Made by a program: the position numbers and the translations under genes
Assembly (NCBI GenBank): GCA_030648205.1
Contig: JAUSIH010000116.1
Coordinates: 1 to 33,206, forward strand
DNA length: 33,206 bases
Reading direction: 5' to 3'
DNA from: Dehalococcoidia bacterium
GTDB lineage: Bacteria; Chloroflexota; Dehalococcoidia; JAUSIH01
The notes under the pieces: generated by a model
The model's input: only the letters and a program-made list of their open reading frames with translations
Told to the model about the DNA's origin: nothing
Databases searched by the model: none
In this document: piece by piece, positions 10,154-29,937 of the stretch
How the letters are laid out: each line of letters starts with the position of its first letter
Numbering within the stretch: the stretch's first letter is position 1

Positions 10154-10867
10154 ATGACACGACCACACGTTATCGCTATTGATGGGCCTGTGGCTGCGGG
10201 CAAGACCACCGTGGGCCGACTGCTCGCCCGCAAGCTCCGCTACCGCTTTGTAGACACCGGCGTCATGTACCGGGCCGTCACTTGGCTGGCCTTGCAGCGG
10301 AAAGTTGACCTGGACGACGCCTCCGCCCTCTCGAACCTGGCGCGCCACGCACGCATCGAGCTGAAGCCCGCTCCCCGCCGGGCGAGCGGCAGCGCCATGG
10401 TGGTGGATGGACAGGATGTAACCGCCAAGCTTCGCCTGCCCCGTGTGGAGCGGGCCGTGTCCATCGTGTCGCGCGTCCGGGGTGTCCGGACGGCGCTCGT
10501 CCGGTTGCAGCGCCGCCTGGCGGACGACGGAGGAGTTGTCATGGTGGGACGGGATATCGGCACGGTGGTCCTGCCGCACGCCGACATCAAGGTCTATTTG
10601 CAGGCCTCGCCGGAGGAGCGGGCGCGTCGGCGCAGCCTGGAGGTGCGCGAGGCCGGACACGCCGCCAGCTACGAGACTATCTTGCGGGACATCCAGCGCC
10701 GGGACAGGCTGGACAGCGAGCGCGTCGTATCGCCCCTCAGGCAGGCCCCTGACGCGTGCGTCGTCAACACGGACGGTCTCACGCTGGAGCAGGTGGTGGC
10801 CGAGATTCTCGCTATGGTGGATGCCCCGGAATGCGCCCCTTCTACGCGCCGTCGCTGCTCCTCGTAA
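10154..10867 (+). CDS. cmk: Cytidylate kinase
   Basis: Cmk phosphorylates CMP and dCMP with ATP in pyrimidine nucleotide recycling. The 237-residue protein begins TRPHVIAIDGPVAAGKTT, with the P-loop GPVAAGKT at residues 11-18. Further family blocks are FVDTGVMYRAVTW (substrate binding), VVMVGRDIGTVVLPHADIK and ASPEERARRR (lid region), then RDIQRRDRLDSER near the C-terminus. The ATG at 10154 matches the normal start; the longer upstream frame would run through the terminator stem and promoter. A GGAG lies a rather long 13 nt upstream. The 3' end overlaps the next gene by 37 nt, a cmk-plsC arrangement common in Firmicutes and Chloroflexota. Confidence 0.95.
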   Translation: MTRPHVIAIDGPVAAGKTTVGRLLARKLRYRFVDTGVMYRAVTWLALQRKVDLDDASALSNLARHARIELKPAPRRASGSAMVVDGQDVTAKLRLPRVERAVSIVSRVRGVRTALVRLQRRLADDGGVVMVGRDIGTVVLPHADIKVYLQASPEERARRRSLEVREAGHAASYETILRDIQRRDRLDSERVVSPLRQAPDACVVNTDGLTLEQVVAEILAMVDAPECAPSTRRRCSS

Positions 10868-11436
10868 GGGTGGTGTTCCCCCTGCTGGCGGACGCTCAAC
10901 TTAAGGGTGTGGAGGCGGTGATTCCTCGTGGCCCGCTGGTGGTCGTGGCGGAGCGACGGAGCCGGTGGGACGCGGTGGCCCTGGCGGCGGCGCTTCCGCG
11001 CCCCCTGGTGTTCTGGGGCAGGGAATGGGCGGCAACCGGAGGTCGTCTGGTCCTTCCGCGGAGGGACAGGCTGGACGAGGGTGTGGACATGCTGCGTCAC
11101 GACGCAGCGGTGGGCATTCTGTTAAGAGACGTCAGCCGCCCTCGGAGCGGGTGCGTTCCGTCCGCGGCCCGCATCCCGGCCGGGATGGTCGGCGCGGTGC
11201 TTCTGGCCCTGCGCGCTATGGCGCCCGTGCTGCCCGTGCGCGTGAGCGGGACTGAGGGCATTGGGCTGCTGCGCAGGCCGCGGGTGGAGGTGGTCTTTGG
11301 TCAACCCTTCAGCCTGCCCCTGCTGGAGGGGCTGCTCTCCCGCGCCATGCTCTGCACGCTGGCGGAGATGGTCGCCGGGAGGCTCGCGACCGTGCGGGCG
11401 GACGACTATCAGAGGCCCGGCGCGCCCGGCAGTTGA
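10831..11436 (+). CDS. PlsC-like acyltransferase homologue lacking catalytic His
   Basis: Position after cmk and overall pattern point to the 1-acyl-glycerol-3-phosphate acyltransferase (LPLAT) family, but this 201-residue copy is strongly altered. The NHxSxxD catalytic box is replaced by ERRSRWD at residues 41-47: Ser and Asp stay, while Asn and the catalytic His have become Glu and Arg. The FPEGTRS substrate box is not recognisable either; the region reads GILLRDVSRPRSG. The C-terminal PVRVSGTEG and VEVVFGQPFSLP blocks match the end of the PlsC domain. It may be a non-catalytic relative or may use another chemistry. The start is uncertain: ATG 10831 gives a hydrophobic N-terminus typical of the family; an upstream frame from 10756 lies wholly inside cmk. 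Confidence 0.65.
   Translation: MRPFYAPSLLLVRVVFPLLADAQLKGVEAVIPRGPLVVVAERRSRWDAVALAAALPRPLVFWGREWAATGGRLVLPRRDRLDEGVDMLRHDAAVGILLRDVSRPRSGCVPSAARIPAGMVGAVLLALRAMAPVLPVRVSGTEGIGLLRRPRVEVVFGQPFSLPLLEGLLSRAMLCTLAEMVAGRLATVRADDYQRPGAPGS
11051..11066. repeat. Palindrome copy 4 (TCCTTCCGCGGAGGGA)
   Basis: Fourth of five copies, with one mismatch, inside the PlsC-like gene. Confidence 0.45.
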
Positions 11437-11509: not shown

Positions 11510-13357
<1,848 letters not shown>

Positions 13358-27947: not shown

Positions 27948-28610
27948 GTGGCAACCGGACAACAGACACGGATTATAGGGGCAGGCGTCCTGCTGGCGAC
28001 AGCTCTGATAGTGATGGCAGTCACCGCGTGCTCTATCTCCACACCTGCGGCACCGGGTGGCGACGGCGCCGTCGCACCCGCACAGCCAGCGCCTGCGTCT
28101 TCTGCCAGGCCGCCGCAGAACTCGCAACCCGCCGTCACAAACGGCGCGCCTGTGCAAGGAGAGGCGAACGTCGAGCATGGCGGCGCTCGGCAGGTTGGAA
28201 GCGCCTCTCGGAGCGCGACTCTCACGACGCTACAGACCAGCAAGCAGGGCCCCGTGACCGTGGAGGCGCGCCTGAGCGACGCTCACGCCGCGGGGGACAC
28301 GGGCCCGCTGGTCTTTTCCATTGTGCTGGACACGCATAGCGTGGACCTGGACGCCATTGACCTGGCGGGGTCGGCGAGCTTGCGGGACGACCGCGGCCGC
28401 TCGGTGGCTCCTGTGCGCTGGGAAGCGCCCCGCGGCGGCCACCACGTCCAGGGTGTCCTCACGTTTCCGGGCGTTCTCGCCGACGGCTCGGCGCTGCACA
28501 GCCGTTCCACGCGGTCGCTGGCGCTCGTCGTGACGAACGTCGGCGATATCCCGGAGCGTCGCCTGACGTGGGACCTGGCGGCGGAATCTCCCGCGAACGG
28601 AGGCTCGTGA
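27948..28610 (+). CDS. Lipoprotein with DTH and GGHH motifs, putative extracytoplasmic metal binder
   Basis: A 220-residue protein with a lipoprotein signal (lipobox VMAVTAC, Cys28), a Pro/Ala/Gly-rich linker to about 95 and a compact domain (about 95-215). That domain carries FSIVLDTHSVDLD (Asp128, Thr129, His130), a Trp-containing strand and RGGHHVQGVLTFPG (His165, His166), an arrangement I have seen in unnamed proteins beside copper genes; the His residues suggest metal binding. The GTG start follows AAGGAGG by seven bases. Its stop overlaps the next ATG (TGATG). With the lgt gene in the same cluster, it is a likely client of that enzyme. Confidence 0.72.
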   Translation: MATGQQTRIIGAGVLLATALIVMAVTACSISTPAAPGGDGAVAPAQPAPASSARPPQNSQPAVTNGAPVQGEANVEHGGARQVGSASRSATLTTLQTSKQGPVTVEARLSDAHAAGDTGPLVFSIVLDTHSVDLDAIDLAGSASLRDDRGRSVAPVRWEAPRGGHHVQGVLTFPGVLADGSALHSRSTRSLALVVTNVGDIPERRLTWDLAAESPANGGS

Positions 28611-29302
28611 TGGCTGAAGCCGCCCTCCAGAGACGCGCGCTCTCCATTCAGGGGATGACCTGCGTCTCTTGTATCGTGCATGTGGACGAAGCGCTGCGTT
28701 CCGTTGAGGGGGTGGAAGCGGCAGATGTGTCCATTGGCCGGGCGGTTGTCCACTATGACCCGGCCCGGACCGCACCGGAGGCGCTGGAGCAGGCGGTCCA
28801 GGCTGCGGGCTACAAAGTAGCCCCGGAGGGCGCGGCGGCGGACAGGCAATCCCGCGGTATGCCCGTCCTGGTGGGCCTGTCCGCCGCGCTGGTCCTCGCG
28901 GGGTTCTACGTCGTCGTCATCGGCCTTCTGTCCGGAGACATGGCGCATGGTGTCAATCAGGTGCGAGACGACCTCCTGCTCGTAGCGCCGCTGGTAGCGG
29001 GCTTCGGTGTCCAGGCGGGGCTGTTCATCCATACGCGCCGCGTCATGGCCGCGCGCATGAGCCGCGCGGCGCCGGCGGCGGCGAGCGGCGCGGGAGTCGG
29101 TGTCTCCACGGCCACCATGGTGGCGTGCTGCGCGCACCACGCCTCGGACGTGCTGCCGCTGCTGGGCATCGCGGGTCTCGCCACGTTCGCGCTGGACTAC
29201 AAGACGCCCCTCATGCTGATAGGCATAGCGGCCAACATCGCGGGCGTAGGCATCATGGCATGGCGGCTCCGGCGCGCCGCAGCCGCCTGTCTCAAGAACT
29301 GA
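28610..29302 (+). CDS. HMA-domain membrane protein with CCAHH motif
   Basis: A 230-residue fusion. The N-terminal HMA domain (about 8-72) has the copper-chaperone motif GMTCVSC (Cys18, Cys21). Then come about four transmembrane helices. The loop or helix start at 170-177 reads MVACCAHHASDVLPLLG, with a compact Cys-Cys-Ala-His-His cluster (Cys173, Cys174, His176, His177) likely to bind metal at the membrane. Layout resembles small metal carriers that pass ions from a soluble domain to a membrane site, as MerT does with MerP, but it is not clearly MerT. The start ATG overlaps the previous stop by one base. A role in copper delivery is inferred from the HMA motif and neighbours. Confidence 0.82.
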   Translation: MAEAALQRRALSIQGMTCVSCIVHVDEALRSVEGVEAADVSIGRAVVHYDPARTAPEALEQAVQAAGYKVAPEGAAADRQSRGMPVLVGLSAALVLAGFYVVVIGLLSGDMAHGVNQVRDDLLLVAPLVAGFGVQAGLFIHTRRVMAARMSRAAPAAASGAGVGVSTATMVACCAHHASDVLPLLGIAGLATFALDYKTPLMLIGIAANIAGVGIMAWRLRRAAAACLKN

Positions 29303-29320
29303 CACAGTGGGAGAGATACG

Positions 29321-29644
29321 ATGATTGAAGTGACCTCCCAGGCGGCTGCTCGTCTCAAGGGTGAGCTTGAAGCGCGTGGTCTGACGCCATATCCCCTGCG
29401 CATCGTGGCCGTGCGCGGGCCCCACGGATGCATTCATGGCTACACTCTGGCCCCCGAAAGAGAACTCGGAGAGGGCGACCGCGTCGTGGAAGAAAGCGGC
29501 GTTCGTTTCGTTGTCCACCAGGACATGGCCCCATTCCTGGACGGAGCGCGGATAGACTGGGATGGCGCGCACCTGACAATTGACGCTCCGGCGTCGCCGC
29601 CGCCGCGGCACGAAGGGCACTGCGAGGACCACCATGCCGCGTGA
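29321..29644 (+). CDS. A-type Fe-S carrier-like protein (IscA/HesB fold) with His/Cys tail
   Basis: A 107-residue protein that matches the IscA/ErpA/HesB domain from start (VTSQAAARLKGELEARG) through LRIVAV, EGDRVVEESGVRFVVH and the LDGARIDW strand. Normal A-type carriers have three Cys that hold an Fe-S cluster: one in the GCSG loop and two in a C-terminal CGCG. Here only the first remains (Cys37 in PHGCIHGY), and the C-terminal CGCG is replaced by a Pro-rich stretch and a HEGHCEDHH tail (97-105). This suggests a switch from cluster to metal binding. The ATG follows GGGAGAG. The stop overlaps the next GTG as GTGA. Confidence 0.72.
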   Translation: MIEVTSQAAARLKGELEARGLTPYPLRIVAVRGPHGCIHGYTLAPERELGEGDRVVEESGVRFVVHQDMAPFLDGARIDWDGAHLTIDAPASPPPRHEGHCEDHHAA

Positions 29645-29937
29645 ACGGGTTTCCCCGGCCGTCCCGCCGTCCTCGCTGGGGACTGCCCCTGGTGCTGGCG
29701 CTGGGCCTGTGGCTCTGCACCCTGCCCCTCGTGGGGCTTGCCCTGGCCCTGGGCCTGCTGCCGTGGCAGGACGCATGGCCCGCCGTGGGCCTGCTGCTGG
29801 CGGGCGATCTGCTGGCGTGCTTCGTGCTGTGCCACACCGTTCTGAGAGGCTGGACCGAGGCTCTGACCTGCGCGCCGCGCCTCGACTTTGCGCGCGTCAT
29901 GCCAGCGGAAGGTAAAGCCTGTGCCTCAACGCAATAG
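29641..29937 (+). CDS. Small membrane protein, unknown
   Basis: A 98-residue protein, GTG start overlapping the previous stop (GTGA), so translation is coupled. Basic N-terminus (RPSRRPRWG), two transmembrane helices (about 15-36 and 46-68) and a short cytoplasmic or outer tail with Cys residues (LLACFVLCHTVLRG, ALTCAPRL, GKACASTQ). No family is recognised. The end overlaps the next gene by 17 nt. Confidence 0.65.
   Translation: MNGFPRPSRRPRWGLPLVLALGLWLCTLPLVGLALALGLLPWQDAWPAVGLLLAGDLLACFVLCHTVLRGWTEALTCAPRLDFARVMPAEGKACASTQ

Follow-up and report, generated by a model that had tools for sequence, protein, structure and literature searches.

The plsC gene next to cmk in a Dehalococcoidia bacterium was found to encode a protein from which both catalytic boxes of the PlsC family have been lost. 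PlsC is a phospholipid-making enzyme that adds the second fatty acid by acylating lysophosphatidic acid. The gene was located at positions 10831..11436 on the plus strand of the analyzed stretch of 33,206 nucleotides (the window). Its open reading frame gave a coding region of 10831-11433 for 201 amino acids, with the stop codon included to 11436. Judging from sequence comparison, we assign a probability of about 0.5 to the reading that this PlsC orthologue has become a pseudoenzyme that is still translated, and that the second acylation falls to a different enzyme.

Results

The gene was preceded on the same strand by an intact cmk, which codes for (d)CMP kinase (10154..10867; PF02224, 7.9e-71; TIGR00017, 1.2e-69). 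Open reading frames and alignment showed that the cmk 3' end and the plsC-like gene shared 37 nt (10831..10867), in agreement with the overlap in the original prediction. Downstream, glmS (11510..13357, plus strand, Pfam scan) followed after a gap of 73 nt, and it was also near plsC in several of the related cmk-plsC loci. Against PF01553 the plsC-like protein scored 14.4 bits, below the cut-off of 23, with a weak match over residues 25-64. The NCBIfam scan returned TIGR00530 alone, at 0.061. Elsewhere in the window, positions 28286-29776 on the minus strand held an open frame of 497 amino acids without a Pfam match at 1e-5; GC-rich DNA may have produced this frame by chance.

The descent of the gene was examined using loci that had both cmk and PlsC matches, with identical proteins counted once and PlsC loci left out if their flanks gave no cmk match. 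The two genes were adjacent in 33 sequences, which came from the window, 31 genomes of the class and one Chloroflexi MAG (L061). They overlapped in 20 of the 33 by 1 to 37 nt, with the start codons of relatives chosen by script. A profile of the 32 relatives matched the window gene in frame 0 with 80.1 bits, and the best score in any of the five remaining frames was an insignificant 0.1 bits. From the cmk-plsC neighbourhood in 32 other loci and this match confined to one frame, we conclude that the window gene is plsC by descent, vertically inherited in the cmk-plsC unit. It showed 32-36% identity to cmk-adjacent PlsC of the class (e.g. L002, L006 and L007), in the same locus and gene order. 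With PlsC, of which 5kym is a solved example, it shared the position after cmk, the length class, an N-terminal hydrophobic stretch and the C-terminal blocks. However, it lacked the Asn-His of box I, the PEGTR box and the E-L-F block. A family alignment of 19 sequences including the window protein found 5kym at 6.4e-29, and the window protein alone as the query found no PDB chain at E 10. The AlphaFold model was built from 2 sequences and was too poor to use, with a mean pLDDT of 41. Foldseek with this model returned nothing at or below E 0.001; chains of the acyltransferase PatA appeared at E 0.77-1.8 among unrelated ones. In L061 (3440-4856), two PlsC-type genes lay in tandem after cmk, each above the PF01553 cut-off and each with HX4D.

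The alignment was then read for the residues lost and kept. Residues 41-47 (10951..10971, plus strand) were ERRSRWD at the position of NHx4D, so that Asn was replaced by Glu and His by Arg (R42) and Asp47 was kept. These three residues were present in 32/32 cmk-adjacent relatives. At box II (11119..11139, plus strand; F-PEGTR in relatives), P was changed to R and E to D, both invariant in the 32 relatives, and G to V (G in 31/32); Arg103 was still alignable. P-E-x-x-R, like NHx4D, was found in 32/32 relatives, unlike in the window gene. These losses were as originally predicted. The only histidine of the protein was H90, outside the boxes, and its two cysteines were C108 and C175. The length had been described as kept, and this did not hold fully, since 15 alignment columns after box I were missing, the conserved E-L-F among them, and 6 residues were inserted after box II. 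Twelve columns were invariant across the 32 relatives. Seven were kept (G34, D47, R103, G121, P135, G140 and G157) and five were lost (window positions 31, 41, 42, 99 and 100), four of the five in boxes I and II.

The losses were uneven along the protein. Of the 66 columns that were conserved in 70% or more of the relatives, the window protein kept 28, the lowest number of the 33 sequences. The share kept differed between the halves, with 10/36 in the N-terminal catalytic half and 18/30 in the C-terminal one (Fisher p 0.012). The N/C retention ratio was 0.46, whereas the 32 relatives ranged from 0.80 to 1.25. The better-kept C-terminal blocks (11173..11316, plus strand) contained G121, P135, G140 and G157 as in 32/32 relatives, and the claim that these blocks were kept was thus upheld. 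Since both boxes were lost and there was no histidine other than H90, the sequence gave good support to a non-acyltransferase, as had been proposed. By eye, a loose E..RS..G pattern was seen in another frame near box II, as a frameshift might leave. The class profile found nothing there, and this candidate was rejected.

We asked whether relatives shared the loss. In the loci compared, 64 reading frames matched the PlsC profile and 61 had HX4D; the remaining three were the window gene itself, counted three times. Counted as distinct box-I contexts (n=44), 43 had NHx4D and only the window gene did not. All 43 motifs started with NH and lay at the place of box I, at a distance of 38-42 residues from the point where the profile match began. 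Box II varied slightly among relatives, with PENR in L028 and PEAR in L003, and PEG was not found at this box in L027. The loci had been chosen by similarity, which biased them toward intact genes. As an offset, a positional check for a His-less relative was made in the 45 other PlsC-less genomes described below and 5 others, and it gave no second case. In three of the 45 that had a cmk match (G107, G108 and G323), the contig appeared to end at cmk, judging by how long the loci were. None of the cmk-adjacent homologues compared, all from outside the order of the window genome, shared the loss of His. The conserved role in the original prediction was therefore not supported, with NH at box I in 43/43 other distinct PlsC frames. 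For the relatives compared, this is the outcome that the prediction itself had named as refuting.

The divergence of the gene was compared with that of cmk on a topology fixed from both genes. The terminal branch of the window was 1.80 for PlsC and 0.46 for cmk. The ratio of 3.87 was the third of 33, with a median of 1.20; the two higher ratios had very short cmk branches, and that of L061 was 3.55. The excess divergence of the window gene was approximately threefold. Split by halves, its terminal branch measured 2.14 (N half) and 1.54 (C half). Accelerated divergence was the one pseudogene sign present. There was no stop and no frameshift, and the coding composition was not lost. GC at the first, second and third codon positions was 0.79, 0.54 and 0.83, and the codon-bias index was 0.605, compared to 0.612 for cmk and 0.608 for plsY. 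The coding signal was weakest mid-gene, in 150-nt windows starting at 10921-11101. Neutral change was simulated under three mutation biases in 300 runs each, without indels, which would lower the probability of a stop-free frame. This probability was 0, 0.003 and 0.037 at 1.3 replacements per codon, and 0.04 to 0.24 at 0.5 replacements per codon. A long, fully neutral past is unlikely because of the values of 0 to 0.037. A short neutral phase or a recent relaxation is possible.

The phosphatidic acid pathway was searched in the same genome. A PF01553 search even at E 10 found the window gene only (E 0.287). Because the genome is 95% complete, a second plsC in the unsequenced part is possible. 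PlsX (1.6e-96), two PlsY-family genes (8.1e-46 and 3.8e-39) and CdsA (2.1e-57) were present, and der, plsY and gpsA were clustered (gpsA: PF07479, 7.3e-57; PF01210, 2.9e-43). With these genes, the cell presumably makes lysophosphatidate and uses phosphatidate, and the step between has no recognizable enzyme. Since the search of the genome yielded no working PlsC at any other place, the second fatty acid is probably added by another enzyme. PlsY acyltransferases (PF02660) act in the same pathway and belong to a different protein family, which the window gene did not resemble in the Pfam scan. The second PlsY (contig C77) kept GHxxP and GGRG, and its motif 1 was GDTNVGAGN vs GSGSTGATN in the first. 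This divergent copy might catalyse the missing step.

PlsC absence was surveyed in 393 genomes of the class with completeness of at least 85%. No PF01553 match at 1e-3 was found in 46, the window genome included, and all 46 had PlsY. The absence filled whole groups in the sample (g14, 3/3; f60, 6/6; f75, 3/3; f76, 4/4). The g14 genomes G013, G048 and G093 were single contigs, 99-100% complete; G013 and G048 kept PlsX and CdsA, and PF02224 was absent from both. No match to the cmk protein of the window at 1e-6 was found in 42 of the 45 other PlsC-less genomes, which indicated that the cmk-plsC pair was usually missing together. One missing contig could remove the pair in drafts, but hardly in the three single-contig g14 genomes. 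The window genome differed from the others in that cmk was intact beside an emptied plsC.

PlsY copies averaged 4.13 in the PlsC-less genomes (n=46) vs 3.05 in the others (n=347). The 6 families wholly without PlsC, the window's included, leaned to more PlsY than the 80 wholly with PlsC (p 0.035), and within families PlsY copy number did not follow PlsC loss (permutation p 0.78). Our hypothesis that PlsY gain explains PlsC loss is to be read with both results. PlsY paralogues with altered motif 1 occurred in genomes both with and without PlsC. Up to 9 PlsY-family paralogues were counted per genome, with a strongly varied motif 1 (L101-L116 and others). One genome of 98% completeness (G012) had six PlsY-type genes and no match to PF02504 (PlsX), PF01553 or PF02224.

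Discussion

The catalytic boxes of the window protein have been lost and its reading frame has stayed open. In the PlsC family, the His of HX4D deprotonates the acceptor hydroxyl, according to a published study (PMC5700162). We infer that the window protein no longer acylates lysophosphatidic acid, and that the gene would still be translated, coupled to cmk. The product would be a small remnant of the PlsC fold, associated with the membrane, and its C-terminal part may still matter. Perhaps it serves as a non-catalytic partner or a lysophosphatidate-binding subunit of the acylation machinery. Such a partner role is conceivable because the same study suggests that channelling between PlsY and PlsC might exist, without proof (PMC5700162). 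The second acylation could then be carried out by an unrelated or PlsY-type enzyme, for which the second PlsY with its divergent motif 1 may be considered. Evidence against a pseudoenzyme is that the loss was seen in one genome only and that the high divergence in both halves also fits relaxed selection. A replacement by PlsY is opposed by the copy numbers, which did not track PlsC loss within families, and the window genome itself has two.

A decaying gene would look similar in several respects. PlsC might be dispensable and the frame on its way out, still open because relaxation was recent or because stops would be polar on glmS; stops upstream of glmS could be selected against, which would keep the frame open. 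The raised branch ratio to cmk, the fewest conserved columns of the 33, the mid-gene dip in coding signal and the complete absence of the gene from some other genomes of the class all favour this explanation, and we regard it as a serious possibility that falls short of an even chance. However, excess changes of approximately 1.2-1.3 per codon, if neutral, rarely left a stop-free frame in the simulations, no frameshift was present, and under functionless decay the C-terminal half would not be expected to be the better kept one. The original claim that the gene is something other than a decaying one is accordingly suggestive only. The open frame, the cmk-like codons and the better C half speak for it, and a recent relaxation still fits.

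A surviving acyltransferase whose active site has been rebuilt is improbable. In its favour, the protein keeps Asp47 and Arg103 as well as the C-terminal blocks, and a genome that keeps PlsX, PlsY and CdsA seems to need a lysophosphatidic acid acyltransferase. However, the His of HX4D is Arg in the window protein, its sole His lies outside the boxes, and neither box II nor the E-L-F block is left. An assembly error, a chimera or a hidden frameshift is very improbable, even though the draft genome comprises 120 contigs. The hidden frameshift that could have undermined the original prediction was looked for and not found, since only frame 0 matched the PlsC profile, and this confinement to the gene's own frame indicates that the loss is real. 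The changes in box I were in-frame substitutions with matching residues on either side, and the flanking cmk and glmS were normal.

The translated pseudoenzyme therefore remains our preferred reading, and its context is the rest of the class. According to a recent paper (PMC13400652), PlsC occurs universally in bacteria. Whole groups of the class without a PF01553 match run against that statement. Among the papers listed by our literature searches, nothing dealt with bacteria without PlsC or with a His-less PlsC. Tentatively, and with more doubt than confidence, we suggest that the class might have a PlsC-free route to phosphatidic acid, that the window might hold a PlsC past catalysis whose protein is kept for a non-catalytic use, and that a PlsY-type paralogue may replace it. 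The catalytically empty PlsC in this genome and the 46 PlsC-less genomes among 393 point to a further lysophosphatidate acyltransferase, which is a directly testable question.
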